Program-made: the position numbers and the translations under genes | Notes under the pieces: model-generated | The model's database searches: none | Told to the model about the DNA's origin: nothing | Seen by the model: only the letters and a program-made list of their open reading frames with translations | DNA from: Candidatus Krumholzibacteriota bacterium | Lineage (GTDB): Bacteria > Krumholzibacteriota > Krumholzibacteriia > Krumholzibacteriales > Krumholzibacteriaceae | Direction: 5' to 3' | Length of the DNA: 64,000 nucleotides | NCBI GenBank assembly: GCA_016932415.1 | Contig: JAFGCX010000027.1 | Location: 1 to 64,000, forward strand | Shown: positions 3,510 through 45,798 of the stretch, piece after piece | Position numbering within the stretch: position 1 is the first letter of the stretch | Layout of the letters: every line of letters begins with the position of its first letter

Positions 3510-5861
3510 CTACATCTTTGTAACTATATAGACAGTCGTCAGGGCGCTCGCGATGATACTGACCGATGTCTGGAGTATCTTCATCCAGTCCCGGTCCCTG
3601 ATTACCTTCTCTGGTACGATTATCGCGTCACCGAGTTCTATGACCTGTGAGAGCGCCCTGCGTTTAAGGACTCTTCCGTCCGCTTTGAGTATTCTCAATT
3701 CGCCGCTCGCCGCTCTTCGCGAAAAACCACCCGCCCTGTCGATGTAGTATTTCGTCTTCTTTCCTGGAAAATACTTGATCGTACCGCTGGACGCGACTGC
3801 GCCAAGCACGTTCACTCCCGAGGGACGAGGAGGGATCGTGATCCTGTCTCCCGCCCTCAGGACGATATCGTCTGCTCTTTCCCCGCTTTGAGAGATTGTT
3901 TCGAGGTCGATGATTATCCTGTTCATCTTGCCGGAATTGTAATTGACAGAATAGCCGTCTGCCATGACAGCTCCGCTGCTGTCCCTCTGCGCCTCCCGCA
4001 ATGAAAGGATCACATCTTCGACATGCCTGTACCTGAGTTCATCGACGATGCTTCCACGTTCAAAAAGGGCTCCAGGAAGAAACGCCTTGCCGGTGAATCC
4101 GCCAGCACGTTCGATCAGATCGGTCAGGGTCTCTACGCCCTGCTCGATCACGTAAGTCCCGGGGAAAAGCACTTCCCCGGCGATCGTTACCCTCTCGTGC
4201 CCGGAATAGTTCGGTATCTCCCGGATGAAAAGAGCATCTCCTGGATATAGAAGGATATCTTCTTTACCATGCGGCTCAGTCAGGACGCGGCCGAGGTCGA
4301 ACATCAATATTTCGGAAGATCTCGTCGTATCGGGAACAAGCCTTGCGAGTTCGGCGCGAAGAAGATACGCCTCTTTTTTTATCCCGCCCGCCTGATAGAT
4401 CAGATCGCTGACGACCATATCGTCGGCAAAAATATATTCGCCGGGAAGTCTTATCTCCCCTTCGATGCTCACTGACTCGGTATCGTGCATCCTCTTGGTC
4501 GAGTAGACCTCGATTATATCGCCTGGATAAAGGATCATATCGCGCGTGATCAGCTTGCTCTCGGACAGTTCTTCCGGTACACCTTTCCCATTCTCTTCGG
4601 TCTCCTCTTTTCCCGCCTGACCGACCGGTATGGAAGACAACAGATCTTTTAGAGCTACCTGAAAGACTGATCTGCGCCTGTCATTGAAGATCCTCGTGAC
4701 AAAGACCCTTTCCGTATACGAATCAGGCAGGAGCATTCCCCGGCCGATCAGATCCGTTATCTTCATCCCTATGTGATGACTGTATTCTCCCGGGTACTTC
4801 ACCTTCCCCTGCAGCAATACCACATCCTCTTTCAAGTCATGGATGGATCTCACCTTTATCCGGTCGCCGTCTATTATCTCGATATTATCTTTTTTCGCCC
4901 CACTCTTACCCGTGATATCGAGATCGATAAGGACATTTTTCAGGTTATCCTCGAAACGGATCAACTCGACTTTTTCCAGATACGCTGAAGACCGCAGCCC
5001 CCCGGCAAGTTCGATCGCGTCAAGGACCCTTTCACCACCGAGTATCTCATAGACACCCTCTCTCTTCACTTCTCCCGCTACCGTGACGAGAGGTCCCGCC
5101 ACGGGGACAAAAATAATATCGTTCGATTCGAGCCGGACATCCTCTCCTTTTCCGTTCATCAGAAGTTCGTAGAGATCGACCACTTTCACGACACTCGTGC
5201 CCCTGACCAGCCTGACCCTTCTAAGCGAACCTCTCTCCGTAGGGCCACCGGCAAGGTGGAGCGTGTTAAAAAGAGTATAAAGCGAACTGACAGTGTAAGC
5301 TCCCGGTCTCATCACTTCTCCGCTTACGTATACTGTGACCGACCTGATCTTACCTAGGATCAGGTTCATTTCGAACTTTGAATATATCCTGCTGTAATGC
5401 TCAGCGAGCCTTTTCTCCGCCTCTTCGATCTTCAGCCCCCAGATCACCAGCTCTCCAGCCTTCGGGACAAAGACCTTACCCTCTCGATCGATCACCAGTT
5501 CCATTGTCAGATCGGCCGATCCCCAGAGGTTTACGACCAGATGGTCGCCTGGTCCAAGTGTATAGTCGGATGGAACCGGGATCTCCGAGGATGACACGAA
5601 TTCAGCCGGCACGGATGAAAAAACGTCGATCCCGTAACGGGTGGGGGTTGTATTCGCATGCCTTTCGGGAGGCAGCACAGGTTCGCTGTCATTGTATATC
5701 TCGACAGTATTGGACTCCTTTTCAGAATCTTTCAACGCCGCCTGGTTTTCGATATATTTTCTATAAGCTTCTTTCTGAGCTTCAGTCTGAGCGCGCACCG
5801 CATCGGGAATCGAAAATATGACAACGACCGATAGCGCCGCCAGTATGATCCTTCTGAACAT
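3510..5861 (-). CDS. Polysaccharide export protein (Wza-like) with six SLBB domains
   Basis: A 783-residue exported protein. A signal peptide covers about residues 1-24 (RIILAALSVVVIFSI, then AVRAQ). The Poly_export domain follows at about 95-175, recognised by DYTLGPGDHLVVNLWG and GKVFVPKAGE. Six SLBB (beta-grasp) domains then repeat the pattern 'V.V.GEV..PG.Y' with a downstream 'AGG': VYVSGEVMRPGAY, VAGEVKREGVY, LQGKVKYPGEY, IEGEIRLPGEY, IAGEVLFPGTY and VLGAVASSGTI. A hydrophobic segment near the C-terminus (SVSIIASALTTVYIV) could cross a membrane. The family forms the periplasmic and outer-membrane channel for capsule or exopolysaccharide. Wza itself has only two or three such domains, so this long form resembles the SLBB-rich exporters of soil and FCB bacteria. 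No lipobox is seen. The Shine-Dalgarno site AAGGAAGG sits about eight bases upstream. No Wzc-type kinase is in the window. Confidence 0.9.
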   Translation of the reverse strand: MFRRIILAALSVVVIFSIPDAVRAQTEAQKEAYRKYIENQAALKDSEKESNTVEIYNDSEPVLPPERHANTTPTRYGIDVFSSVPAEFVSSSEIPVPSDYTLGPGDHLVVNLWGSADLTMELVIDREGKVFVPKAGELVIWGLKIEEAEKRLAEHYSRIYSKFEMNLILGKIRSVTVYVSGEVMRPGAYTVSSLYTLFNTLHLAGGPTERGSLRRVRLVRGTSVVKVVDLYELLMNGKGEDVRLESNDIIFVPVAGPLVTVAGEVKREGVYEILGGERVLDAIELAGGLRSSAYLEKVELIRFEDNLKNVLIDLDITGKSGAKKDNIEIIDGDRIKVRSIHDLKEDVVLLQGKVKYPGEYSHHIGMKITDLIGRGMLLPDSYTERVFVTRIFNDRRRSVFQVALKDLLSSIPVGQAGKEETEENGKGVPEELSESKLITRDMILYPGDIIEVYSTKRMHDTESVSIEGEIRLPGEYIFADDMVVSDLIYQAGGIKKEAYLLRAELARLVPDTTRSSEILMFDLGRVLTEPHGKEDILLYPGDALFIREIPNYSGHERVTIAGEVLFPGTYVIEQGVETLTDLIERAGGFTGKAFLPGALFERGSIVDELRYRHVEDVILSLREAQRDSSGAVMADGYSVNYNSGKMNRIIIDLETISQSGERADDIVLRAGDRITIPPRPSGVNVLGAVASSGTIKYFPGKKTKYYIDRAGGFSRRAASGELRILKADGRVLKRRALSQVIELGDAIIVPEKVIRDRDWMKILQTSVSIIASALTTVYIVTKM

Positions 5862-6214
5862 TTAACCTGTTCCTTCCTTGCATCGTATCTGGAAAATATT
5901 CCCGGACAATCCGGTTCCTGCCCCGGTAGTAACAATATCCATTCCACCGGTCGATATTCCCGCATTGATATCGGGCATCGCAACCTGTTGCGGGACAGCC
6001 ATTAGCGAGGCTCCAAAGTCGCCTCGCGCCCGGGCGCTACGAAAATAACGGCCGACAGGGTATTTTTTTCCTTTGGTAGAGAGAAAAAAGGAAAGAATTT
6101 CCTTCAGAAATAAACAGTTAAGCTCCTTCACGACCATACCGATAGAACGTAAAGAACCAGCAAAGCTTCACATACAAAAGACATTGACGATCTGGGAAAA
6201 CGAATGGAGAACTG
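5862..6214. other. Divergent intergenic region with GC-rich inverted repeats
   Basis: This 353-base stretch separates the divergent SLBB exporter and aminotransferase genes, so it should hold both promoters. I cannot assign a clear -35/-10 pair. It contains three inverted repeats close together: CGCAAC-ct-GTTGCG (5979-5992), GCGAGGC-9nt-GCCTCGC (6005-6027) and the perfect 12-base palindrome GCGCCCGGGCGC (6026-6037). A minus-strand frame runs through the area and ends with a TAA directly before the exporter ATG; its glycine/threonine-rich sequence has no recognisable family and I do not call it a gene. Confidence 0.5.
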
Positions 6215-32520: not shown

Positions 32521-33354
32521 TCAGTCTTCCTGTTCTACTTCTCTTATCCTCAGGGAAAAGCCCTTACCACCGGCATATTTCCTGACCCTTTCGTTCACCT
32601 GAAACCGTTCTCTTACCTGGTCGATGGATCCTTCAGCATCGATAAGTCCGAGAGTAAGCGCTACTTTATCGGAATAGCCGGGCAGAAAAGTATAGAGACC
32701 GCCTGGGATCTTTTCAGAGGCAACAACATTGGCATGTTCGAGGATATTCGTCGTACAGTTGTTCCAGATCGTGTTGTAGAACTCCGGTTCCCTGCCCAGC
32801 CTTTCAGCCCTTTCAGTAATATCAATGAACAGTTCCCGTGCTTTTTCAGGAGTCGTGATCAACGGATAGATATAAACGATATCGTCCCGGCACAGGGCAC
32901 GCAATGTTATTATATCATTCTCATCGGCTACTATATAGATCAGTTCGAATCGTTTCATCATCCCTTTCCAGATCGAATATGATTCATCAGATTCGCGCCT
33001 TGCTTCGACCGATACCGCGACAAAAGATGAATCTCCGAATTGGAAGCTGAGGAATGGATGCGCCGGGCCTCGCCGTTCCGGATTGAATAGTGATATGACA
33101 AGCCACACATTTTTCATATCGCGCAAGTCATACCTGCCGCTGCGCCACGCCGTGGAGGCAGGTCCTCCCCCATCGGGACAGTGATCGAAATGCCTGACAT
33201 TGGTGATCGATACTATTGAGTCTTCGATAGAGACAGAGACGACTTCGGCCTGGTCCACGGCCCAATTTCGGTCACCTGATGGCCTGATCATGCTCCAGGC
33301 CGACACCGCGAGTACAATTGGAATTATTATTAACATCAGTCTTTTTAACTTCAT
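32521..33354 (-). CDS. DUF4105 (Lnb-type) exported or membrane-anchored protein
   Basis: A 277-residue protein from the ATG at 33354, where a hydrophobic signal or anchor follows (KRLMLIIIPIVLAVSAWS). A TTG overlapping the upstream stop (33510) would add 52 residues without a signal, which seems less likely. The DUF4105 core is clear: FLSFQFGDSSFVAVSVEARR, YIVADENDIITLRA and YNTIWNNCTTNI. The cysteine/histidine set of this family resembles NlpC/P60-like cysteine peptidases, though its role is not established for most members. A characterised relative is the N-terminal domain of the Lnb lacto-N-biosidase group. Confidence 0.85.
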   Translation of the reverse strand: MKLKRLMLIIIPIVLAVSAWSMIRPSGDRNWAVDQAEVVSVSIEDSIVSITNVRHFDHCPDGGGPASTAWRSGRYDLRDMKNVWLVISLFNPERRGPAHPFLSFQFGDSSFVAVSVEARRESDESYSIWKGMMKRFELIYIVADENDIITLRALCRDDIVYIYPLITTPEKARELFIDITERAERLGREPEFYNTIWNNCTTNILEHANVVASEKIPGGLYTFLPGYSDKVALTLGLIDAEGSIDQVRERFQVNERVRKYAGGKGFSLRIREVEQED

Positions 33355-33506
33355 GCGACGTAAGATCCCTTCCTGGAGAAATATCTTCTTTTTTACTATC
33401 CCGGCTCTTTCGCCGGCAATAAATATCTTCATACCAGCCATTAAAGAACTCTGTTTCATGATCACGGCGCCGGGATATCCCTCTTCACTTCCCGCTGGCG
33501 CTGGAT

Positions 33507-33980
33507 TCAATCATTCGGCAGCATATTTTCCGGCATCCTGACTGCTATGACCGTCCCTTTCGCGCATATTTTGCCCCCTGCTGAGAGAGTCTCACTGATA
33601 ACTACCTTTTTACCCGATATTTCTTCTACTTTTCCGCGTATCTCGAGAGGGACTCCCATCGGCGTCGGACGCAGGTAATCGACTTTCAATGAAGCCGTGA
33701 CGAAACGGAGGGGAGGATCCGAAGACATCTCCCTTCCTTCGGCTCGGTATGAAGCCGCCGAAGCGGTACCAGTGCCGTGGCAGTCTATCAGCGAGGCTAT
33801 AAGGCCCCCATATACATATCCTGGAATCGCAGTGTGGCAGGATCGGGGTTCAAATAGAGCTATCGATTCCTCTCCATCCCAGTAACTCTTGATCTGCAGG
33901 CCTTCTTTATTCAACCTGCCGCATCCATAGCAATGGCTCAGGTCATCGGGGTAATAATCCTGAAACGCTTTTCCCTTCAT
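33507..33980 (-). CDS. PaaI-type hotdog thioesterase
   Basis: A 157-residue 4HBT/PaaI-family protein. The start at 33980 has AAAGGAGG eight bases upstream; twelve codons earlier there is an alternative without such a site. It opens with CYGCGRLNKEGLQIKSYW, typical of the group, and has the hotdog helix motif GYVYGGLIASLIDCHGTGTA with the catalytic aspartate, followed by TASLKVDYLRPTPMG. Members hydrolyse acyl-CoA thioesters. Divergent from the RsbW-like gene. Confidence 0.9.
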   Translation of the reverse strand: MKGKAFQDYYPDDLSHCYGCGRLNKEGLQIKSYWDGEESIALFEPRSCHTAIPGYVYGGLIASLIDCHGTGTASAASYRAEGREMSSDPPLRFVTASLKVDYLRPTPMGVPLEIRGKVEEISGKKVVISETLSAGGKICAKGTVIAVRMPENMLPND

Positions 33981-34124: not shown

Positions 34125-34544
34125 TTGAAGAAATCATTCGAAAGAAGCATCGATTCACTTGAATCGATTTTCAGTTTTATCGGAAAGTTCGTCGCTGATA
34201 ACGATCTTGATGAGGCCATGTCCTTCAACCTCAACCTTATAATAGAGGAATTATTCACCAATCAGGTCAGGCATGCCGCCGGAGGGACAGATCACATCGA
34301 TATCTCACTCGGTTTCAACAGGTCTGCTCTGAGAATAGATATTGAAGACTTTGACGTTGCCCCTTTTGATCCCTCCGAAAGAAACCCAGTCGATACGAAT
34401 GAACCGATAGAGTCACGAAAAAGCGGCGGCCTGGGAATTCACCTGGTAGAAAACCTGACTGACGATCTGAGGTTCGAGAATGTTGATGGCATATTACGTA
34501 TAACCGCGACTATTAATATGGAGGACACCGATGTTCGACATTAG
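34125..34544 (+). CDS. RsbW/SpoIIAB-like ATP-binding anti-sigma kinase
   Basis: A 139-residue HATPase_c protein with a TTG start (no ATG or GTG fits; the upstream stop is six bases away). The Bergerat ATP site is complete: N box LIIEELFTNQVRHA, G1 IEDFDVAPFDP and G2 SGGLGIHLVENLTDD. Proteins of this type phosphorylate a STAS partner and bind a sigma factor in partner switching. The next gene overlaps by 14 bases and encodes that STAS partner. In Bacillus order STAS precedes kinase; here it is reversed, as is common in FCB genomes. No SpoIIE phosphatase is present in the window. Confidence 0.88.
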   Translation: MKKSFERSIDSLESIFSFIGKFVADNDLDEAMSFNLNLIIEELFTNQVRHAAGGTDHIDISLGFNRSALRIDIEDFDVAPFDPSERNPVDTNEPIESRKSGGLGIHLVENLTDDLRFENVDGILRITATINMEDTDVRH

Positions 34545-34815
34545 AAAAGATGAAAACGGGATTATTAAATTCCAGGGTAAACTTGACGCCTCTAAAGTCG
34601 AAAAAGCCAGGGCAGTCCTCGACGCAGTCACTGGCTCGGCATCTATCGATTTCGGCGAACTCGATTATATCTCAAGCGCGGGGCTGGGAATCCTTCTTGC
34701 CACGCAGAGACGGCTGATGAAATCAGATGACAGGTTAAAACTCCTCAATCTCAACCAGCATATCCGTAATATTTTCAAGATCGCGGGTTTCGATTTAATC
34801 TTTGACATCGAATAA
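34531..34815 (+). CDS. STAS-domain anti-anti-sigma factor (RsbV/SpoIIAA-like)
   Basis: A 94-residue single STAS domain. The phosphoacceptor loop is DYISSAGLGILL with S48/S49 as candidates. It starts with MFDIRKDENGIIKFQGKLDA and ends at about the usual length. Its start overlaps the kinase gene, so production is coupled and stoichiometry is probably fixed. Phosphorylation by the kinase would release or capture the controlled sigma factor; which factor cannot be seen. Confidence 0.92.
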   Translation: MFDIRKDENGIIKFQGKLDASKVEKARAVLDAVTGSASIDFGELDYISSAGLGILLATQRRLMKSDDRLKLLNLNQHIRNIFKIAGFDLIFDIE

Positions 34816-35030: not shown

Positions 35031-35579
35031 ATGTCGGAATGCGATTCATTGCTCGTAGCGGAAAGTTTAAAAGGCGACAGGAATGCCTACGAAGCTCTGG
35101 TGAAGAAATATGAGAAAAAGATTTTCAATCTCGCGTTCAGGATAACAAACAACTATGAGGACGCAATGGATATAACCCAGACGGCATTTATAAAGGCATA
35201 TGAAAAGCTCGACAGCTTCGACCCGTCGTTCAAGTTTTTCAGCTGGCTGTACAGGATTACGACGAATGAAGCGTTGAACCTGGTAAAGCGTAACAACCGG
35301 TCCAGACCCCGGTCAGGCGAGACATCGATGAGTGTTATCGGAAATATCACTTCATCTCAGCCGAACCCCGAAGAACAGATGATAAAGAATGAGACTTCAG
35401 GCAGGGTCCAGGAGATGTTGATGAGACTCAAGGACGACTCGAGAGTGATCATAATATTGAAACATTTCGTCGATATGTCTTACAACGAGATCGGTGATGT
35501 GCTGGAGATTCCTTTGACAACGGTCAAATCGAGACTTTACGACGCAAGGCAGGATCTGGTGAGACTTCTAGCCGAATAG
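35031..35579 (+). CDS. ECF-family RNA polymerase sigma factor
   Basis: A 182-residue sigma factor of the extracytoplasmic function group. Region 2 (about 15-85) includes YEALVKKYEKKIFNLAFRIT, DAMDITQTAFIKAYE and FSWLYRITTNEALN; region 4 (about 125-178) includes LMRLKDDSRVIIILKHFVDM and YNEIGDVLEIPLTTVKSRL, the helix-turn-helix that reads the -35 box. The linker is polar and short. A membrane anti-sigma gene follows after eight bases, and a PrsW-type protease gene lies about 6 kb downstream. A GGAACT at 34868-34873 upstream resembles an ECF -35 element, but its -10 partner is unclear. Confidence 0.95.
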   Translation: MSECDSLLVAESLKGDRNAYEALVKKYEKKIFNLAFRITNNYEDAMDITQTAFIKAYEKLDSFDPSFKFFSWLYRITTNEALNLVKRNNRSRPRSGETSMSVIGNITSSQPNPEEQMIKNETSGRVQEMLMRLKDDSRVIIILKHFVDMSYNEIGDVLEIPLTTVKSRLYDARQDLVRLLAE

Positions 35580-35587
35580 GGTATGTG

Positions 35588-36370
35588 ATGTTTGATGACA
35601 AATACATGATATCACTTATGAACGCTGAAATAGACGGAGTCATTTCTCCCGAGGAAAAGCTCGTTTTAAGAAAACGGCTCGATTCCGATCCGGCGGCAGT
35701 TAAATTCTATCACGGGCTATGCAAGGCCACCTCGATGCTCGACGCTGAAGAAGATCTCGAACCCCCCGAATCACTGAAGGAAAATATCCTCCGTGAAATA
35801 TTCGGTCCATCCGAGCAGATTATCGATGATCGAAAGATCACATCCCTGGGTAAAAGATTCAAAGAGATGCTTTCCTGGAACAGACGATACGCATATGGAT
35901 TCACGACAGGTCTCGTAGCCGGCGCTCTTATACTGGCAGCCGTCCTGCTTGGTATCGACAGGGGCATTTCAATTGATTTGGCCGATTTTTACGCTGCGGT
36001 CGGTATCAGGGAAAACAATATTGGAAAGATCGATGATCTTTTCCAGTTCGTTGATGAAGATATCTCAGGAATCATTCGCTCGAGTTTTGATACGGACAGG
36101 TTGGTAGCGAAAGTCGAGATTTCGTCACGGTCTCAGCTCGAACTGGTCTTCGATCTGGCCGGTTCTACCCGGATCACGGGACTTGCCTGTCCAGGGAAAG
36201 GCCTTCCGGAATTCGAATCGTCAGGTAAGCGGCTTAAAATAGTCCATAAGGGTGATTCCCGGTATCTGGTCACTTTTGCGAGTGGTCCTGAAGAAAGCCC
36301 GGAAATCAATTTCAGCATTTTCAGGGGTGGCAGAATGGTCTCCGGAAAAAAATTTCCGGAATCTAACTAG
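35588..36370 (+). CDS. Zinc-free membrane anti-sigma factor
   Basis: A 260-residue single-pass membrane protein. The start is ATG 35588 (GTG at 35585 is possible), eight bases after the sigma gene stop. The cytoplasmic N-terminus (about 1-75) looks like an anti-sigma domain: MISLMNAEIDGVISPEEKLVL, then YHGLCKATSML, but the zinc motif HxxxCxxC is incomplete, as in zinc-free members. A membrane helix (TTGLVAGALILAAVLLGID) crosses at about residues 105-123. The periplasmic part (about 125-260) is a beta-rich domain with no recognised family. It probably holds the sigma factor at the membrane and releases it on proteolysis; the PrsW gene in the same cluster would be the natural site-1 protease. 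Confidence 0.85.
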   Translation: MFDDKYMISLMNAEIDGVISPEEKLVLRKRLDSDPAAVKFYHGLCKATSMLDAEEDLEPPESLKENILREIFGPSEQIIDDRKITSLGKRFKEMLSWNRRYAYGFTTGLVAGALILAAVLLGIDRGISIDLADFYAAVGIRENNIGKIDDLFQFVDEDISGIIRSSFDTDRLVAKVEISSRSQLELVFDLAGSTRITGLACPGKGLPEFESSGKRLKIVHKGDSRYLVTFASGPEESPEINFSIFRGGRMVSGKKFPESN

Positions 36371-36462: not shown

Positions 36463-38427
36463 ATGGGAAAGAAGTTCCTGCTGGGTATAGTGATCATCGC
36501 AGTTCTCGTGATCGCTTACTTCGCGTTCATCTATCCCCCCGCGTCGGATGAAGATGCCCGCGGGACGATAGGTGCTGTCGAGAAGCACAGGGATACGCAG
36601 ATGACTGAGAAGGATGTCCTTCTCGAAGGACAGGAGAATGAATCGGATTACACCGAAGATCAGCTCCTTTCCGTCGAGGAGATGGCGTCCCTCTTCGAAA
36701 AGGCTTCACTTCAGGAAAAAGTATCCCTTATGGAGAAAACATCTATCGAGGAAAGAGTATCCATTCTGGAAAAAGCATCACTCCAGGAAAAAGTCTCCAT
36801 CTTTGAAAAATTCTCCATCGAGGAAAGGGTATCTATTTTCCAGCGTTTCTCGCTCAGCGAACGCAGCAGCATACTGAATCGCTTCTCGATCGAAAGTGAC
36901 GCATTCGAAAAGATGTCTCTCCAGGAGAAGTCATCGATCATGGGCAAATTCTCGATCCAGGAAAAAGCTTCGATCATGGAAAGAGCGTCGCTGCAGGAAA
37001 AAGCTTCGATCATGGAGCGGCTTTCACTTCAGGAAAAAGCCTCGATCCTCGAAAAAGCGTCTATAATGGAAAAAGCCTCGATATTCAACAGGGCTGAGAT
37101 CCAGGAAAGGCTTTCATTCCTTGAAAAAGCCTCGATCCAGGAGAAAGCTTCGATATTCAACAGGGCTTCGATCTTTGAAAAAGCTTCGATCCTCGAAAAA
37201 GCCTCGATCCAGGAGAAAGCTTCGATATTCAACAGGGCTGAGATCCAGGAAAGATCTTCCATATTCAACAGGCTCTCCCTGGCTGAAAGATCAAGCATCC
37301 TCAATCGCTATTCAATAGCGGCCGATGCTTTCGAGAAGATGTCTCTCCAGGAAAGATCATCGATCATGGCAAAGTTCTCGATCCAGGAAAAAGCTTCGAT
37401 TTTCCAGAGAGCTTCGCTGCAGGAAAAGGCTTCGATCATGGAAAAGGCTTCGATCCAGGAAAAAGCCTCGATCATGGAAAGAGCTTCGCTGCAGGAGAGA
37501 TCGTCGATCCTTCAGAGAACATCGATCCAGGGAAGGGCATTCCTCTTCCAGCGAGCCTCGATCCAGGAAAGGGCATCCTTGATGGAACGGGCTTCACTGG
37601 AGGAAAAGTCCTCCATATTCAACAGGTCGAATATCCAGGAGAGATTGTCGATATTCAACAGGTTCTCGATACAGGAAAGAACGAATATCCTCAATCGTTA
37701 TTCAATAGCCGTCGACGCTTTCGAGAAGATGTCTCTCCAGGAAAGAGCTTCCATAATGAACAAGTTCTCGATCCAGGAAAAGGCTTCTATCATGGAAAAG
37801 GCTTCGCTGCAGGAAAAGTCATCAATAATGGAAAGACTTTCACTGCAGGAGAAAGCTTCGATAATGGAGAAGGCTTCATTGCAGGAAAAAGCATCGATCA
37901 TGGATCGTTTCTCCCTCCAGGAAAAAGCTTCGATCATGCTCAGATCCTCAATCCAGGAAAAAGCCTCGATATTCAACAGATTCTCACTCGAGGAAAGAGT
38001 ATCGATGCTCGAACGCGCCTCTCTGGAGGAAAGATCCTCGATATTCGGTCACTTCACTCCCCAGGAAAGGGTAACTATCTTCAATCGGCTTTCCCTTCAG
38101 GAGAAGAGTGAGATCATGAACCGTCTTTCTACTTCGGTGGAGACTTTCGAGAAGATGTCCCTGCAGGAGAAATCATCGCTGATGGACAAATTCTCAGTCA
38201 TGGAAAGGTCTTCGCTTCTGCAGAAGGCTTCAATCCAGGAGAAAAGTTCAATCTTCGAAAAATTCTCTCTTCAGGAGAAAGCGTCTATTTTCAACCGTTC
38301 AAGCATTCAGGAAAGAGCTTCCATAATGGAAAAAGCTTCTTTGCAGGAAAAAGCATCCATATTCAACAGGGCTTCGATCCAGCAGAGAGCCTCGATAATG
38401 CAAAGGACATCTCTCGTCAGGGACTGA
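36463..38427 (+). CDS. Membrane-anchored hexapeptide-repeat protein of unknown function
   Basis: A 654-residue protein I cannot assign to a family. Residues 4-24 form one membrane segment (KFLLGIVIIAVLVIAYFAFI), then an acidic linker to residue 75. Residues 76-649 are 89 hexapeptides of the form S-[IL]-x-E-[KR]-x, where x3 is Q, M, F or E and x6 is A, S, F or L; examples are SLQEKA, SIMEKA and SIFNRA. They alternate roughly as S[IL]QEKx then SI[MF]x[KR]x, so a 12-residue super-unit is likely. Four decapeptides break the phase, each like SIAADAFEKM, at residues 142, 284, 414 and 556. The blocks hold 11, 22, 20, 22 and 14 hexads. A tail SLVRD ends it. The period of six with a small residue two before the aliphatic one could fit a left-handed beta-helix; a helical rod is the alternative. 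A strong ribosome site precedes it and a 15-base hairpin follows. Confidence 0.9.
   Translation: MGKKFLLGIVIIAVLVIAYFAFIYPPASDEDARGTIGAVEKHRDTQMTEKDVLLEGQENESDYTEDQLLSVEEMASLFEKASLQEKVSLMEKTSIEERVSILEKASLQEKVSIFEKFSIEERVSIFQRFSLSERSSILNRFSIESDAFEKMSLQEKSSIMGKFSIQEKASIMERASLQEKASIMERLSLQEKASILEKASIMEKASIFNRAEIQERLSFLEKASIQEKASIFNRASIFEKASILEKASIQEKASIFNRAEIQERSSIFNRLSLAERSSILNRYSIAADAFEKMSLQERSSIMAKFSIQEKASIFQRASLQEKASIMEKASIQEKASIMERASLQERSSILQRTSIQGRAFLFQRASIQERASLMERASLEEKSSIFNRSNIQERLSIFNRFSIQERTNILNRYSIAVDAFEKMSLQERASIMNKFSIQEKASIMEKASLQEKSSIMERLSLQEKASIMEKASLQEKASIMDRFSLQEKASIMLRSSIQEKASIFNRFSLEERVSMLERASLEERSSIFGHFTPQERVTIFNRLSLQEKSEIMNRLSTSVETFEKMSLQEKSSLMDKFSVMERSSLLQKASIQEKSSIFEKFSLQEKASIFNRSSIQERASIMEKASLQEKASIFNRASIQQRASIMQRTSLVRD
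36688..38409 (+). repeat. Tandem 18-bp repeat array within the hexad protein gene
   Basis: The 1.7-kb DNA consists of imperfect 18-base units (89 of them) interrupted by four 30-base units at 36886-36915, 37312-37341, 37702-37731 and 38128-38157. The distances between the interruptions are 426, 390 and 426 bases. Codons vary between copies (for example TCG/TCT/TCA for serine), showing that the peptide pattern, not the DNA, is under selection. Confidence 0.95.
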
Positions 38428-38464
38428 TCCGGACGGAGAAAGATAAAAGAACAGGGGAAGAGGT

Positions 38465-38500
38465 GGAAGATTCCCCGGCATCATCGCCGGGGAATCTTCC
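38465..38500 (+). terminator. Perfect 15-base stem-loop after the hexad-repeat gene
   Basis: GGAAGATTCCCCGGC and GCCGGGGAATCTTCC flank a 6-base loop ATCATC; TGCTGTTATTT follows. The T-rich tail is imperfect, so partial termination between the repeat gene and the downstream peptidase gene is likely. Confidence 0.6.
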
Positions 38501-38537: not shown

Positions 38538-41522
38538 ATGAAAAAGATAATTTTTACCGCGTTGTTCGCTCTGATTATTACCGTGACTCTCCTGTCAGGC
38601 GCCGGGACCGCCGAAGAAAACGGGAATAAAGACCAGGAAATCAAAGTCCAATACCTCTCTCTCAGAACAAGAAATCTTCATCTCTTTTATTTTTTCAAGG
38701 ACCAGGAATATATCCTTGGACATCTCTCGCGATGTTTCGAAAACGCTCTCCATTATCACATGGATTTCTTCGATTATACTCCGAGCGGAGAAGTAACGGT
38801 ATTCTTCAATGATTCTGATGACTACGGCTACGCTGGAACGACAACGATCCCCAATAACTGGCTAACGCTCGGGATCGAACCATTTGAATATGTCTACGAC
38901 ACCTGCCCGACCAACGAAAGAATGAACTGGGTCATGAATCACGAGCTGGTCCACGTCGTTGCTTCCGACCAGGCAACCGGATTGGACAGGTTTTACCGGA
39001 GGTTGTTTTTCGGCAAGGTAGCTCCCACGGCCGAGGACCCCGTCTCCATTATATACAGTTATCTCACCAATCCTCGCAGATACGCCCCCAGATGGTACCA
39101 TGAAGGTATAGCGGTATTCATGGAGACATGGATGGCCGGGGGAATCGGAAGAACTCTTACAGGTTATGACGAGATGACATTCAGGGCCATGGTTAGGGAT
39201 CGATCTTTTTTCTATGACATAGTCGGGCTCGAATCGGAGGGCACGGCCAAGGATTTTCAGATCGGACAGAACTCATATCTCTATGGAACAAGATTCTTCA
39301 GTTACCTCGCCCTGAAATACGGTCCTGAGCGCCTGATCGACTGGGTAAAAAGGGACCCTGGGAGCAAGGGATATTTCTCAAGTCAGTTCAGACATGTCTT
39401 CGACAGGTCTCTCGGCAGTGAGTGGTCCGAATGGATCAGGTTCGAACACGAGTGGCAGCAGACCAATCTTGATTCGATAAGAAAATACCCCGTGACTCCG
39501 TACAGGGAACTATCAGGCAGGCCACTTGGGTCTGTCTCCCGTGAGTTTTTCGACCCTGAACATCGCAAGCTCTATACGGCGGTCAATTTTCCCGGCGATT
39601 TCGCGCATATTGAAGAGATCGATATAGATACGGGGAAAGCGAGAAAACTCTGCGAGATAGCTACGCCAGCTTTGTACTACGTGACTTCTCTCGCGTACGA
39701 TCCGTCTTCCTCAACCCTGTTTTTCACGACGGATAACAGCAAGGGGTGGCGTGACCTTAACAGCGTCGATATCGCCACGAGTAAGACGATGGTCCTTATG
39801 AAGAACAACAGGACCGGGGATCTCGTGCTGAACAGGAAAGACAGGTCCATATGGGGAGTGCAGCATGATAACGGACTGTCAAGGATTGTCGCTTTTCCCC
39901 ACCCTTATAATGACGGATTCGAAGTCATGGCCCTCAGGTATGGCAAGGATATCTTCGACTTGGACATCTCCCCTGACGGAAAATATCTCACCGGGACGCT
40001 CGCTGAGATAAACGGAAGCCAGAAACTTGTCAGGATGGAGATAGAGAAACTACTCGCCTACGACACATCTTACGATCTGCTGTGGGAATTCCCAGATAAT
40101 AACGTGGCTAATTTTGTTTTTTCCCCATGCGGAAGATACCTCTTCGGGACATCATATTATACCGGGACGTCTAATATATTCCGTTATGATCTTGAAACGA
40201 TGGCAATGGAAGCGATAAGCAACTGCGAGGTCGGAGTCTTTCGGCCACTTCCGATATCAGCCGATTCCCTCGTCGCTTTTCGATACACGGGAAAAGGTTT
40301 TCTTCCGGTGATGATGCCGAACCAACCGATCGAAGATGTCTGCGCGGTAAAATATCTTGGACAGGCAGTCGTAGAAAAGCATCCGATTGTCAAAGAATGG
40401 AAACTGGGATCACCGGCCGATGTCGATCTTGATTCCCTTACTATCTACAAGGGCGAATATCACATGGTCAGATCGCTCGGACTCTCCTCGCTCTATCCGG
40501 TTGCCGAAGGGTATAAGGATTACCCCGCCTTCGGGTTCAGGTCGGACCTTATGGATCCCGTTGGGATTAACAGCCTCGATCTATCTCTTTCATGGTCTCC
40601 TGAAGAGAAGCTTGCCGAAGACGAGCGGTTGCACGGCAGATTTAAATATCTCAGGTATCCGTGGACTCTCAGCGGAGCGTGGAACCGCGCCGATTTCTAT
40701 GATTTCTTCGGGCCAACAAAGATAAGCAGAAAAGGATATTCGCTCGCTGTTAAATATGATCACTCCTTTATCACGGACGCGCCGAGGAAGCTTTCCTACT
40801 CGGTAAGAGTCGCCGGATATGGCAATCTTGAAAGACTCCCCGATTATCAGAATATCTCCACTTCCTTCGATGAATTCTACACGGCATCGGCAAGACTCGA
40901 TTACAGCTGCCAGCGCGCGACGATCGGACGGATAGAAAGTGAAAAAGGGATAAAGTGGAGTTTTGAGGCTTTTGCCAGCAGTATCAGATCAAAGATATAT
41001 CCCCTGGCTCACCTCGATCTGGACTACGGGCTGCTCACACCATGGGACCATTCATCTCTCTGGCTGAGGACATCTTTCGGATATTCCCCCGGCAAACGCG
41101 AGGAACCATTCGCGAATTTCTATTTTGGAGGATTCGGCAACAACTGGATAGACCACGGGCCATTCAACAGGTACAGGGAATATTACAGTTTTCCGGGAGT
41201 CGAATTGAACGAAATAGGCGGCACGAACTACACAAAGGGAATGATCGAGTGGACGCTACCTCCCCTGCGGTATAAAAGTTTTGGAATACCGGCATTTTAC
41301 TTCAACTGGTCAAGGCTCTCGTTCTTCACAGGTGGAATCGTCACGAACCTTGACGATGATATTTTCAGGCGGAAAGTAGCTAACGCCGGCAGCCAGCTTA
41401 ACACCAAGATCGTGCTGTTTTCATCTCTTGAATCAACGATTTCGGTCGGTTACGCTGTCTCGGTAGAGGAAGGACGGGGACCGGAGGAAGAACTTATGGT
41501 CTCCCTGAAGATCCTTCGATGA
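38538..41522 (+). CDS. Exported gluzincin (peptidase MA-like) with propeller and outer-membrane barrel
   Basis: A 994-residue protein, start set at the ATG at 38538 (GGA upstream; signal peptide KKIIFTALFALIITVTLL), since the frame is open upstream only through the hairpin. Residues about 40-330 form a peptidase MA-like domain: zinc motif HELVH (H135-H139) in WVMNHELVHVVASD and a downstream glutamate in WYHEGIAVFMETW. Residues about 340-640 look like a beta-propeller (TolB/WD40-like: FSPCGRYLFGTSYYTG, SPDGKYLTGTLAEI). Residues about 680-994 are alternating strands ending in MVSLKILR, most like an outer-membrane barrel. The protein would thus present a zinc peptidase at the periplasmic or outer face of the outer membrane. 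It lies between the hexad-repeat and PrsW genes. Confidence 0.85.
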   Translation: MKKIIFTALFALIITVTLLSGAGTAEENGNKDQEIKVQYLSLRTRNLHLFYFFKDQEYILGHLSRCFENALHYHMDFFDYTPSGEVTVFFNDSDDYGYAGTTTIPNNWLTLGIEPFEYVYDTCPTNERMNWVMNHELVHVVASDQATGLDRFYRRLFFGKVAPTAEDPVSIIYSYLTNPRRYAPRWYHEGIAVFMETWMAGGIGRTLTGYDEMTFRAMVRDRSFFYDIVGLESEGTAKDFQIGQNSYLYGTRFFSYLALKYGPERLIDWVKRDPGSKGYFSSQFRHVFDRSLGSEWSEWIRFEHEWQQTNLDSIRKYPVTPYRELSGRPLGSVSREFFDPEHRKLYTAVNFPGDFAHIEEIDIDTGKARKLCEIATPALYYVTSLAYDPSSSTLFFTTDNSKGWRDLNSVDIATSKTMVLMKNNRTGDLVLNRKDRSIWGVQHDNGLSRIVAFPHPYNDGFEVMALRYGKDIFDLDISPDGKYLTGTLAEINGSQKLVRMEIEKLLAYDTSYDLLWEFPDNNVANFVFSPCGRYLFGTSYYTGTSNIFRYDLETMAMEAISNCEVGVFRPLPISADSLVAFRYTGKGFLPVMMPNQPIEDVCAVKYLGQAVVEKHPIVKEWKLGSPADVDLDSLTIYKGEYHMVRSLGLSSLYPVAEGYKDYPAFGFRSDLMDPVGINSLDLSLSWSPEEKLAEDERLHGRFKYLRYPWTLSGAWNRADFYDFFGPTKISRKGYSLAVKYDHSFITDAPRKLSYSVRVAGYGNLERLPDYQNISTSFDEFYTASARLDYSCQRATIGRIESEKGIKWSFEAFASSIRSKIYPLAHLDLDYGLLTPWDHSSLWLRTSFGYSPGKREEPFANFYFGGFGNNWIDHGPFNRYREYYSFPGVELNEIGGTNYTKGMIEWTLPPLRYKSFGIPAFYFNWSRLSFFTGGIVTNLDDDIFRRKVANAGSQLNTKIVLFSSLESTISVGYAVSVEEGRGPEEELMVSLKILR

Positions 41523-41562: not shown

Positions 41563-42561
41563 TTGAGATATCTTTTCAGTTTTCTGCCTGTGATTGTATT
41601 TCTGCTGGCTCTGAAAAGTATGGACAGCTACAAGCTGGTGAGATTCAGGGCGATCGTTCTTGCCCTCCTCGCGGGGGTCGTCTTCGCTCTCCTGAGCATG
41701 GTAATAAACAGGTCTCTTATCGCCACAATATCGATCGAGACAGCCGATTACTCAAAATATATCGCTCCGATCGTAGAAGAATCGTTGAAATCTGTCTATA
41801 TCGCCTATCTGATCGCGTCAAGAAGGACAGGGTTTCTGGTTGATGCCGCGATTTTCGGATTCGCCGTCGGGGCGGGCTTCGCGATTATAGAAAACAGTTA
41901 TTATATCATCGCGCTTGGAAATAATAACCCGCTTATCAGCATCATCCGGGGATTCGGACCGGCGATAATGCATGGAGGGACGACAGCGATTCTTGCCATC
42001 GTCGCTAAAAATATTTTCGACCGCAAATCAAGTCACTCTTTCTCTTTTATCTTCCCGGCACTATTGCCTGCTGTAGTGATACATTCGATCTTCAATCATT
42101 TCCTCGTCTCTCCTGTAATATCGGCAGCGGGGCTCGTCATTATTCTCCCGTCCCTTATGATCGCCGTCTTCACCAGGAGCGAAAGATCCCTTTCAAGGTG
42201 GCTTGGCATAGGCTTCGACGCCGACGCCGATATGCTAGAGATGATAACGACTGGCCAGATACTCGATTCTCACGTCGGGAAATATCTGATTTCGCTTAAA
42301 AACAATTTTTCAGGAGAAGTCCTCGCTGATATGCTTTGCCTGCTCAGAATTCATCTTGAATTGTCGATAAGAGCCAAGGGACTCCTTTTAATGAAGGAAT
42401 CGGGGTTCACCCCCCCGCCCGATCCTGAGTTGAAAGAAAAATTCGTGGAACTCAATTACCTTAAAAGCAATATAGGCGGCACCGGCATGCTGGCGATGCA
42501 TCCTCTTCTGCGCTGGAGCAGCAGAGACCTTTGGCAGATGCACATGCTTGAAAACCATTGA
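41563..42561 (+). CDS. PrsW-family intramembrane metalloprotease
   Basis: A 332-residue polytopic membrane protein with a TTG start (GGGGGAG six bases upstream). It carries the PrsW motifs in order: the glutamate pair E72-E73 in APIVEESLKS, E110-N111 in GFAIIENSYY, H137 in MHGGTTAIL and a late histidine pair in HSIFNHF. PrsW in Bacillus makes the first cut in the anti-sigma factor RsiW. A C-terminal cytoplasmic part of about 140 residues, helical, is extra to the core. Its gene follows the metallopeptidase by about 40 bases in a cluster headed by an ECF sigma/anti-sigma pair, so the anti-sigma at 35588-36370 is the obvious candidate substrate. Confidence 0.9.
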   Translation: MRYLFSFLPVIVFLLALKSMDSYKLVRFRAIVLALLAGVVFALLSMVINRSLIATISIETADYSKYIAPIVEESLKSVYIAYLIASRRTGFLVDAAIFGFAVGAGFAIIENSYYIIALGNNNPLISIIRGFGPAIMHGGTTAILAIVAKNIFDRKSSHSFSFIFPALLPAVVIHSIFNHFLVSPVISAAGLVIILPSLMIAVFTRSERSLSRWLGIGFDADADMLEMITTGQILDSHVGKYLISLKNNFSGEVLADMLCLLRIHLELSIRAKGLLLMKESGFTPPPDPELKEKFVELNYLKSNIGGTGMLAMHPLLRWSSRDLWQMHMLENH

Positions 42562-42587: not shown

Positions 42588-45500
42588 TCAGTTCTTCCTG
42601 TAGTCACTCCCCCCATCCCCGATGAGAATAAAAGCCGACCAGTAGAATGGGTGTTCGTACGGTCTGCTTCCATCTTCATCTTCGAGATTCATAAGCCAGT
42701 TCTTGGCTTCCGTAAGGGCCTCTGCCTTCGGCATAGGCGTATTTTCCCCGCCGTTTCTTACATCGGTGTATGCTCCGAAATAATTCTCATAAAACCGTTT
42801 CATCAACCTGGTAGTCGCTCTATCCTCGACTTTCCAGAGACTGACCACCATGCTTCTCGCGCCAGATTGAAAAAAAGCGTGCGACAACCCGATATATCCC
42901 TCTCCCGCGAGCCTCATACCAAGCCCGGTCTCACACGCGCTCAAATTGACGAGATCGGCGTCGAGATCCCATTCGCGCACTATCTCTCCCGCGGAAAGCA
43001 GCCCGTCATATATCCTCCTGCCCTCGAGAGCCGCTTTCACAGGATCTGGAAGTCCCGCTTGTGACAGGACCAGAGATGATCTCTCCGGATACCGGTCATC
43101 TATCAGGGCATGGGTAGCAATATGGATGATCGAAAAACTTGACAGTGTTCCCTTTACGGCGAAGTTCGCCAGATTCTTCTCCGACGCGTCCGGTCCGAGC
43201 AGAACGACCGATTCCCCGGATATTTTCGCTATCTCTTCTATCTCCTCGCGGCTTCCAGCAAGCCGGGGCAGCCTGGCTATCGCCGCCGAATCGCGGGAAT
43301 ACCCCCCCCGCTGCCTCGCCTCGTCACTGGCGCCGTCCATTTTCACCATTTTTAACAAAGTATCGGGTGCCTCGATATCGTTCGACATCACAACGAGATC
43401 CTCCCCGGAGAATGGAGGATCGCCAACGAGAAGCGCTTTTTTTGATTTATTCCGATTCCTTTTCGATCCCTTCTCCGCGAGCCATGCCGAGATAGTAGCC
43501 GACGGTGCGTACGATATCGTGTATTTCTCACAAAGATAACTGCCATCGCTATCTACGAGCGCTTCTACCGGAAGGCCAAGCATCGCCCCCGATGGTATGA
43601 TTATCAGTCTCTCAATGTCCTCGAGTTCCAGGGAGAGGGGAGCCATCCTTTCTTCCCAGAATTCCTTTGAGCGTTTCGCCAGAGCCTCGATATGGATTCC
43701 GGCAGAAGCAAAAGACCTTCTCAGGTCATACCCTCTTCTGAAGGGCGACCCGGATCGTTCACGACCATCGGGGCCGAGCCTCTCCCATCTGACTGGCCCG
43801 TTCTTCCTGATGACATATCCCCAGGAGGAATATTCGCCCTTCTTTTCCTCGACATCGAGCCATCCGATCATCGCTGTCTTTCCCCGCAGGCTTTTCTGGA
43901 TCTTCTTAAGCTGATAAGCCATCCCTCCTGTCATGGGGTATTTTTTCGCCATCCTGCTCTGGACCTCGCTCAACCGTGCCTGCGCTCTGAGTAATTCGTC
44001 GTATGCTTCCGAGGCTTTTTTATCGGCCTCTTTTGATCCTTCTTCCCCCGCGGCTGTTTTTAAGACGGCCAATCTTTGCTCAAGTCCGCCGATCTCCCTT
44101 CGCATCGATTCGATCGTCTCAGCTTCCTCTTCAGTGAATGGCTGCTTGCCGGATACGGACAGCAGTTCGGCAAGTACCCTGCCCATCTCCCTTTCGGCAT
44201 ATTGCCACGCCTTTTTTTCCCGGCCTGTTGAAAGAAGGACATCCGCCAGTCTTGAATATGGTGATTTCTGGAACGTCACCCTGCCAAATCCCGTTCCTAC
44301 CCTGAGCCTCGACGAATCATATACCTTTATCGCCTGGTTAAGAAAAGGTTCCGCATCTTTATATTTCCCCTGGGCGAGATAGTGATTTGAATAACTGAAA
44401 AGACACATTGATATATAAGGATGATCCTGCCCGAGAAGATCTTTGAAAAGAGAAAGAGATTCTCCATAATATTGCTCCGCCTCCTGATAATTCCCTCCAT
44501 CCCTGTAATTTCTCGCGAGGTTGAGAAGAACGATTGCCGACTCGGGATGGTTATCCTTTGATATTTCGCGTCTGATTCGCAGAGCTTTCAGGTACAGTGG
44601 TTCCGCTTTCTCATATTCTCCCGTATCGTGAAACAGGTCAGCGAGATTATTGTAAGATGCAGAGACTATCCCGTCAGTCTCGCCGAATATCCCCTCGAAT
44701 ATTTCTATCGCCTGGCGATAAAGCTGCTCCGCTCCGGCATAAAACTCCCTGTCCTGAAGAAGGCTGCCAAGGTTAAGCATTACTATCGCCCTGTCAAAGG
44801 AATGATCGTCCTCGAGCTGAGAATATATATTCAACGCCTGGCGAAAAAGTGGTTCGGCTTCCTGAATATCCCCCTTCGCGACAAGAGTTGTCGCCAGGTC
44901 GTTCATGCAGCTGGCTACGTCAGGGTCTATTTCTCCCCACATCTGCCGGTAGACGGCAAGCACGCGCCTGAACAGAGCCTCCGCTTCGGCAAGCTCTCCC
45001 TTATCCTTGAGGAGACTTCCCAGGCTGCTCATCACCCATGCCGAATTCTCCTGATCATCTATCTCTTCAGAGGAATAGATCGCGTACGCCTCGCGGTAAA
45101 GAGTATCAACATCTTCCATTCTTCCCATCTCATGGAGCAATATTCCGAGATTGGTAAGATCCTCCGCTACGAAAGGATGCATCTTTCCGAGGATCTCCCT
45201 GTCCAGTTCAAGAGCCTTGCGATAATATCTTTCGGCCTCTTCCCTTCCTCCCGAATAATCATGGAGGAACGCGGTGACGGTGAGGATCCTGGCAAGCTCG
45301 GGACATCTGGCCCCAAGGAAGTTCTTTTTTATATCGTACTGTTCATTTGTGATCGCGATCGCTTTTTCTATTTCGTCTTTGTCGTAAGCTTCTTCATAGA
45401 TGGCGTTCATTCCATCCGCCCTCGCCATTTCATTTTTTTCTCTCTCCGTCAGGCGATTGATTTTAAAAAGGGTCGCGACGAGCCTGTCTAAATCTTCAGT

Positions 45501-45713
45501 TTCGAATTTCCTGATTCCTTCTGTCACTGGCGCTTCGCTTAAGAGATATTCCGCGATCTTAAGCGCCTCATCGTAGCGGCCCTCGATCCTCAGGACAGAG
45601 ATGCTGTCGGAAAGAGCTTCCAGAAAAGCTGTATTTTCAGCGGCCATAATCGGGCAGCACAGGTTTAAAAGCATTCCCATAGCAAACGGGAAGAGAACCA
45701 GTGTCCTTTTCAT
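42588..45713 (-). CDS. Exported TPR-CHAT caspase-like protease
   Basis: A 1041-residue protein. The start at 45713 has GGAGG and begins a signal peptide (MKRTLVLFPFAMGMLLNL, CCPIMAAE), so it is exported; the earlier in-frame ATG adds 23 unlikely residues. About twelve tetratricopeptide repeats (about 60-520), such as AERYYRKALELDREILGKMH, are followed by a coiled coil (about 560-640) and a C-terminal CHAT domain (about 740-1041) with the catalytic dyad: histidine in IIHIATHALIDD and cysteine in LVNLSACETGLG; SHAFFQSGARSMVVSLWKV follows. CHAT proteins are caspase-like cysteine proteases, usually cytoplasmic. The exported form is located just after the giant surface protein gene and a small exported gene, so it may cleave or process the giant protein. 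Confidence 0.93.
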   Translation of the reverse strand: MKRTLVLFPFAMGMLLNLCCPIMAAENTAFLEALSDSISVLRIEGRYDEALKIAEYLLSEAPVTEGIRKFETEDLDRLVATLFKINRLTEREKNEMARADGMNAIYEEAYDKDEIEKAIAITNEQYDIKKNFLGARCPELARILTVTAFLHDYSGGREEAERYYRKALELDREILGKMHPFVAEDLTNLGILLHEMGRMEDVDTLYREAYAIYSSEEIDDQENSAWVMSSLGSLLKDKGELAEAEALFRRVLAVYRQMWGEIDPDVASCMNDLATTLVAKGDIQEAEPLFRQALNIYSQLEDDHSFDRAIVMLNLGSLLQDREFYAGAEQLYRQAIEIFEGIFGETDGIVSASYNNLADLFHDTGEYEKAEPLYLKALRIRREISKDNHPESAIVLLNLARNYRDGGNYQEAEQYYGESLSLFKDLLGQDHPYISMCLFSYSNHYLAQGKYKDAEPFLNQAIKVYDSSRLRVGTGFGRVTFQKSPYSRLADVLLSTGREKKAWQYAEREMGRVLAELLSVSGKQPFTEEEAETIESMRREIGGLEQRLAVLKTAAGEEGSKEADKKASEAYDELLRAQARLSEVQSRMAKKYPMTGGMAYQLKKIQKSLRGKTAMIGWLDVEEKKGEYSSWGYVIRKNGPVRWERLGPDGRERSGSPFRRGYDLRRSFASAGIHIEALAKRSKEFWEERMAPLSLELEDIERLIIIPSGAMLGLPVEALVDSDGSYLCEKYTISYAPSATISAWLAEKGSKRNRNKSKKALLVGDPPFSGEDLVVMSNDIEAPDTLLKMVKMDGASDEARQRGGYSRDSAAIARLPRLAGSREEIEEIAKISGESVVLLGPDASEKNLANFAVKGTLSSFSIIHIATHALIDDRYPERSSLVLSQAGLPDPVKAALEGRRIYDGLLSAGEIVREWDLDADLVNLSACETGLGMRLAGEGYIGLSHAFFQSGARSMVVSLWKVEDRATTRLMKRFYENYFGAYTDVRNGGENTPMPKAEALTEAKNWLMNLEDEDGSRPYEHPFYWSAFILIGDGGSDYRKN

Positions 45714-45798
45714 CGCGTTCCTCCGGATGGACGGTACTATTATCGCGTTTTGATGGAATAGAATAATATCATAAAGCAGCAATAGCAGTATATCTCTA

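Follow-up and report, generated by a model that had tools for sequence, protein, structure and literature searches.

The gene described here lies in a window of 64,000 nucleotides, the whole stretch of DNA analysed, from a Krumholzibacteria-type bacterium. It encodes a membrane-anchored protein whose C-terminal domain is strongly predicted to be a long α-solenoid of 49 very short helices, built from 45 twelve-residue and four ten-residue units. The protein is real and well conserved and apparently represents a known fold in a new form, in an apparently unstudied envelope-signalling operon. This class-restricted operon unites an outer-membrane peptidase-barrel, a very long solenoid with a predicted inner-membrane anchor and a sigma/PrsW module. 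The features are listed in Table 1.

Table 1. Features of the repeat protein gene and its neighbours (positions in the window).
Feature	Position	Strand	Basis
RsbW-like HATPase, serine-kinase anti-sigma type	34125..34544	+	Pfam HATPase_c_2 64 bits; conserved in cluster
STAS protein, anti-anti-sigma type	34531..34815	+	Pfam STAS_2 44 bits; conserved in cluster
ECF sigma factor	35031..35579	+	Pfam Sigma70_r2/r4_2
Anti-sigma-like protein, one TM and C-terminal extracytoplasmic domain	35585..36370	+	adjoins sigma; weak NCBIfam 22.9 bits; TM from sequence
Repeat protein, 654 aa	36463..38427	+	ORF translation
Single TM anchor FLLGIVIIAVLVIAYFAFIY, predicted N-in/C-out	36475..36534	+	sequence; aligned in 18 orthologues
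Conserved juxtamembrane motif GTIGAxxKxRxxQxxxxDVxL	36562..36624	+	alignment of 18 orthologues
Block 1, 6 dodecads	36670..36885	+	repeat parse
Decapeptide 1, SIESDAFEKM, predicted short helix	36886..36915	+	repeat parse and AF2 model
Block 2, 11 dodecads	36916..37311	+	repeat parse
Decapeptide 2, SIAADAFEKM	37312..37341	+	repeat parse and AF2 model
Block 3, 10 dodecads	37342..37701	+	repeat parse
Decapeptide 3, SIAVDAFEKM	37702..37731	+	repeat parse
Block 4, 11 dodecads	37732..38127	+	repeat parse
Decapeptide 4, STSVETFEKM	38128..38157	+	repeat parse
Block 5, 7 dodecads and SLVRD tail (5 residues)	38158..38424	+	repeat parse
Hairpin, 15-bp perfect, between repeat and barrel genes	38465..38500	+	z = -6.1
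Outer-membrane protein: signal peptide, HExxH peptidase-MA-like, beta-propeller, Omp85-like barrel	38538..41522	+	ORF, motifs, Pfam
PrsW-family intramembrane protease	41563..42561	+	Pfam 69.6 bits

The translation contains one hydrophobic segment near the N-terminus (residues ~5-24) followed by an acidic linker, both as described in the first-pass annotation. The N-terminus is positively charged and the segment behind the membrane span acidic, so that, by the positive-inside rule, the orientation given in Table 1 is strongly predicted, as is a type-II single-pass inner-membrane protein. The C-terminal repeat domain is probably periplasmic. LpxC is encoded in the genome and an LPS-bearing outer membrane is therefore likely. 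In the juxtamembrane motif, G34, I36, Q46 and D51 are invariant in the 18 orthologues, and a Pfam scan of the motif yielded no family. Second, short proteins with a TM segment and a GTIG/GTVTG...Q motif, but without the long array, are encoded in L105 (G033, about 4199-4500) and L106 (G032, about 5514-5882).

Parsing of the protein reproduced the 89 full hexads in blocks of 11, 22, 20, 22 and 14 that had been counted before, and returned exactly the four decapeptides (residues 142, 284, 414 and 556) at spacings of 142, 130 and 142 residues. The periodicity is far beyond chance when compared to shuffled sequences (z = 24 at lag 6 and z = 27 at lag 12). The hexapeptide as the repeating unit had to be given up. 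Directly ahead of the first hexad counted, SVEEMA forms a further unit, with which block 1 comprises 12 hexads and every block an even number. Position 3 of the hexad is M, F or L in all 45 even hexads, whereas a hydrophobic residue occupies it in only 3 of the 45 odd ones (permutation p < 5e-5). Owing to this strict alternation, the unit is a 12-mer with the consensus S-[IL]-[QE]-E-[KR]-[AS]-S-I-[MFL]-x-[KR]-[AFL], and the array consists of 45 dodecads (6-11-10-11-7) and four decapeptides, 49 units altogether. Matches to the protein on the minus strand of the genome were rejected as stop-broken antisense of the repeats, and no Rfam family was found in the window.

Relatives were detected in 16 of 57 related genomes and in the window's own genome by whole-genome searches, and a profile of the N-terminal part gave matches in 22 of the 80 Krumholzibacteriia genomes of this class-wide search. 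A genome-contig search returned relatives in only two named records, one from Krumholzibacteriia and one Eisenbacteria MAG, and none was present in the viral contigs searched. Divergent orthologues contain stretches such as ...RFTPEERFAMFDRFTPEERF..., ...RLDPKAREDIFSRLDPKAREDIF... and ...ERLTPAERTNVLERLTPAERT..., and nearly all show a stronger signal at lag 12 than at lag 6; thus, the 12-residue period is kept while the hexad is lost. Position 1 of the unit is mostly S, T, D, N or P in most orthologues, residues of the N-cap type. Position 2 is Pro in 74-86% of the units of two orthologues, Pro is almost never found at positions 4-12, and positions 6, 8, 9 and 12 remain hydrophobic. Pro at position 2, the N-cap residue before it and the retained hydrophobic residues therefore indicate an N-capped short helix as the unit, and an S/T N-cap is strongly predicted to open each 12-residue unit. 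In the G045 orthologue (L041, 450-2288), a near-perfect supra-unit of 34 residues (12+12+10) occurs about 15 times and the decapeptide marker returns after every two dodecads.

An AF2 model of a 269-residue fragment with a 21-row alignment reached a pLDDT of 85.3 and contained 22 helices at 12-residue spacing and no strand. The single-sequence model (pLDDT 60) was likewise all-helical. Both models place one helix of 8-10 residues in every 12 residues and a shorter one in the decapeptide, and these ten-residue helices are strongly predicted to act as phase or curvature markers. Of the long helical rod that the first-pass annotation had considered, the helical character was retained, but instead of one rod-like helix many short ones are predicted, and the solenoid could be compact instead of extended.

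The same annotation was aware of no named repeat family with this consensus, a statement that no longer applies. MgtE_N (PF03448) matches the window protein with 106 bits (cut-off 25.9) and exceeds this cut-off in each of the nine further dodecad orthologues that were scanned (L036, L037, L038, L039, L041, L044, L101, L102 and L103), including the least repetitive ones, whereas reversed decoys of the window protein and L044 gave no match. L037 also matches FliG_M (PF14841), as do L041 and L039 weakly. With models and family matches taken together, the fold class can be securely predicted as an α-solenoid, with short MgtE_N/FliG-like helices arranged in tandem. With the confident fragment (pLDDT 85), Foldseek found no significant match in the PDB, FliG and MgtE being among the best with E > 1, and the full-length single-sequence model, which was used for fold class alone, matched only α-solenoids with TM values of 0.1-0.2. 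No PDB match was obtained with the single protein sequence, one weak chain with the repeat profile (HEM_3.C9, E 0.005), and FliG 3hjl with the divergent orthologue L044 (E 0.025); hhalign of profile A2 against the genome's own MgtE sequence was not significant (E 0.26).

Other assignments were rejected. A TPR, PPR or HEAT solenoid is not indicated by any Pfam match in the protein or the scanned orthologues, and the 34-residue period of the G045 orthologue resolves into two dodecads and a decapeptide. The protein is no MgtE channel, as it ends in repeats without a CBS or channel match, and a real MgtE is encoded elsewhere in the genome. Matches to LpxD, EIF2B-LbH, LED_rpt, DruA, F-box and similar Pfam or NCBIfam models were considered hexad or low-complexity artefacts because several are below cut-off and some are absent from orthologues; LED_rpt matches the reversed decoy, too.

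The MgtE_N and FliG_M (ARM-like) domains share with the modelled repeat protein a short helix about every 12 residues; in these domains the helices form a right-handed superhelix, and presumably they pack in a superhelix in the repeat protein, too. Their copies in MgtE and FliG are cytosolic, comprise about 4-10 helices and are fused to other domains, whereas the repeat protein is membrane-anchored, probably periplasmic and carries its 49 units in tandem, interspersed with regular decapeptide markers. FlgY, an E-ring protein of the flagellar motor in Campylobacter, is periplasmic and uses an MgtE_N/ARM-like superhelix as envelope scaffold (PMC11870540). It has four helices, a long coiled coil and a flagellar role, in contrast to about twelve times more helices and no flagellar context here. 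In the repeat protein, helices of the MgtE_N/FliG type make up a long tandem series, and no solved counterpart of significance was found with the confident model. Neither an α-solenoid of 12-residue units nor a repeat protein from Krumholzibacteria turned up in a literature search.

Comparison of block numbers in orthologues, as had been proposed, gave the identical layout 6-D-11-D-10-D-11-D-7 (D, decapeptide) in four genomes, namely, that of the window, G009 (72% identity), G017 and G014 (54% each). A unit is closer to its positional counterpart (0.73 for G009, 0.55 for G017) than to the remaining units (0.54 and 0.44, respectively), and only one insertion of a single residue, in G014, was seen among the four proteins. 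With dS close to saturation, the dN/dS ratio amounts to about 0.1. Within the family, purifying selection is strongly predicted to act on helix count and marker positions. A freely slipping tandem array would not hold such a layout. Other lineages have other lengths, with 703-716 aa in the g2 genomes, 585-628 aa in the f7 genomes and 807 aa in CP070702. The first decapeptide lies near residue 142-149 in most orthologues.

Anchor and locus are retained in two lineages (G032 and G025) in which the C-terminal domain differs. The G032 orthologue (L074, 5020-6786) consists of about 55 nine-residue ASPDFQAAL units that match STI1-HOP_DP (PF17830) with 86.6 bits, a likeness to the DP repeats of STI1/HOP that was found in this relative alone and that the window protein does not share. 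The G025 form is short (295 aa) and has a mere trace of period 9. The conservation of anchor, GTIG motif and locus although the repeat chemistry differs argues that the C-terminal domain is needed as an elongated helical body and not for a particular surface. Conserved helix number and the exchange of 9-mer for 12-mer on one anchor provide a natural test of whether the sequence, or only length and shape, counts.

In most loci with enough contig, the gene order is HATPase, STAS, ECF sigma, anti-sigma, repeat, barrel and PrsW, while the genes around the repeat-barrel pair are arranged differently in G025 and G032. Of 58 genomes, 17 are barrel-positive and all of these have a repeat-type gene, which was absent from 39 of the 41 others (Fisher p ~ 9e-13). 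The two remaining genomes, G013 (L033) and G016 (L040), encode repeat proteins that have diverged and lack the GTIG motif, and no barrel gene was detected in them. A later N-terminal search added G029, with the anchor motif and no barrel match. The closest NCBIfam model of the ECF sigma factor is SigW with 146 bits (below the cut-off of 209), and the general ECF model scores 111 at a cut-off of 42.9. PrsW in the cluster is the only copy detected by the genome search. ECF sigma factor, TM anti-sigma factor and PrsW are encoded together as in SigW/RsiW/PrsW-type systems. The Bacillus PrsW initiates the breakdown of RsiW, by which SigW is released. Given the co-encoded PrsW and SigW-like sigma factor, a similar release logic, from PrsW via the anti-sigma factor to the sigma factor, is likely here by analogy. 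This cluster differs from the Bacillus system in that the host is a diderm and the one operon also includes the outer-membrane peptidase-barrel, the repeat protein and an RsbW/STAS pair of the partner-switch type. A TPR-rich protein with a C-terminal CHAT protease domain adjoins PrsW (42588-45782, minus strand), with a CHAT/TPR relative also beside PrsW in G018 (L076), and a protein with an Lnb_N periplasmic domain is encoded near the cluster (32521-33510, minus strand; Pfam 110.6 bits).

The barrel protein, whose ORF has an alternative start at 38463, possesses HExxH and WxHEG motifs that are invariant in 13 orthologues. Weak Pfam matches in these orthologues were PD40 (10/13), Omp85_2 (9/13) and Peptidase_MA_2 (3/13), and comparison of the barrel profile with solved structures found no sequence relative. 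Judged from its sequence, it is possibly a new Omp85-type architecture. A strong hairpin of 12-18 bp is found just past the stop codon of the repeat gene in most clusters (L029-L032, L036-L038, L041, L043-L045 and L074 besides the window), and none was seen in L034 and L039. Its position is conserved, the sequences are unrelated and several come with a T-tract. The hairpin is terminator- or attenuator-like, and its conservation suggests that repeat and barrel proteins are not made in equal amounts; more of the repeat protein would be produced.

The ways in which diderms span and sense their periplasm are known for few systems, such as Lpp, TamB/YhdP and flagellar rods. Tentatively, the repeat protein is here regarded as a periplasm-spanning strut or tether that would couple the outer-membrane peptidase to the inner-membrane sigma/PrsW module, a reading that is plausible and falls short of probable. 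The solenoid would reach into the periplasm in the order of 20-25 nm (about 49 helices of ~0.5 nm each, or ~1 nm per helix pair) as an elastic element. It could pass the state of the peptidase-barrel on to the anti-sigma factor and PrsW, perhaps via the GTIG...YR..Q..DV motif. When this contact is lost or changed, the sigma factor would be freed and the envelope regulon transcribed, including the operon of the repeat protein itself.

Alternatively, the repeat protein may be an oligomeric scaffold, its short helices packing against those of neighbouring molecules. Instead of a single strut, a ring, belt or lattice in the periplasm would then encircle the outer-membrane barrel or lie on the inner membrane, which is credible but unlikely. 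This is consistent with units of the MgtE_N kind, given the intermolecular stacking in FliG and FlgY, and with an excess of repeat protein that the hairpin ahead of the barrel gene would favour. FlgY itself, which is periplasmic and possesses a domain of the MgtE_N/ARM-like type, assembles into the E-ring as an oligomer (PMC11870540). However, 49 units per chain already form an extended object without oligomerisation, and the G025 version is much shorter.

The proposal of a ruler, spacer or lattice in the periplasm was reasonable for ruler and spacer in view of the conserved block sizes, with a periplasmic location being probable. In its strict form, the number of 12-residue helices would set or measure the distance between the membranes, and a barrel that is not reached or held would be the signal that frees the sigma factor through PrsW. 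Such a ruler would have been rebuilt in separate lineages from unrelated short-helix units, 12-mers of the MgtE_N type and STI1-like 9-mers, on the same anchor. A calibrated length is rather doubtful; as repeat-type proteins vary from 295 to 807 aa across lineages, no single ruler length is fixed in the class.

That the repeat protein serves the sigma regulon as a chaperone or holdase in the periplasm is also improbable, albeit not fanciful. Unfolded outer-membrane proteins would be gripped along its hydrophobic grooves and handed over to the Omp85-like barrel or the peptidase of the latter. The ECF/PrsW stress context fits this function, as do the peptidase motif and Omp85-like barrel of the partner and the STI1-HOP_DP-like repeat of G032 (86.6 bits), a fold that occurs in co-chaperones. 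A holdase would, however, not need a strictly conserved number of units and spacing of markers, and MgtE_N units are, to our knowledge, not the building blocks of any known chaperone.

That the array is a passive, low-complexity or disordered spacer that arose by repeat slippage is very improbable. It is indeed strongly repetitive and rich in S, E, K and A, but the model with alignment is confident (pLDDT 85), the units are positionally orthologous with identical counts across genera and dN/dS is ~0.1. The DNA copies of the repeat have diverged, which excludes recent slippage.

The left-handed β-helix, as in LpxA, LpxD and GlmU, is formed by hexapeptides in 18-residue coils of three strands with an aliphatic core residue. 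This fold, to which the first-pass annotation had pointed, can practically be dismissed: the hexad similarity, with its six-residue pattern S-[IL]-x-E-[KR]-x, and the matches to Pfam LbH_EIF2B (66.8 bits, cut-off 54) and NCBIfam LpxD (136 bits, below the cut-off of 207) are opposed by blocks of 22 and 20 hexads that are not divisible by three, a hexad that orthologues do not conserve in favour of lag 12, no LbH match in six orthologues scanned, the frequent Pro at position 2, which therefore is no β-helix core residue, and AF2 models that are helical throughout.
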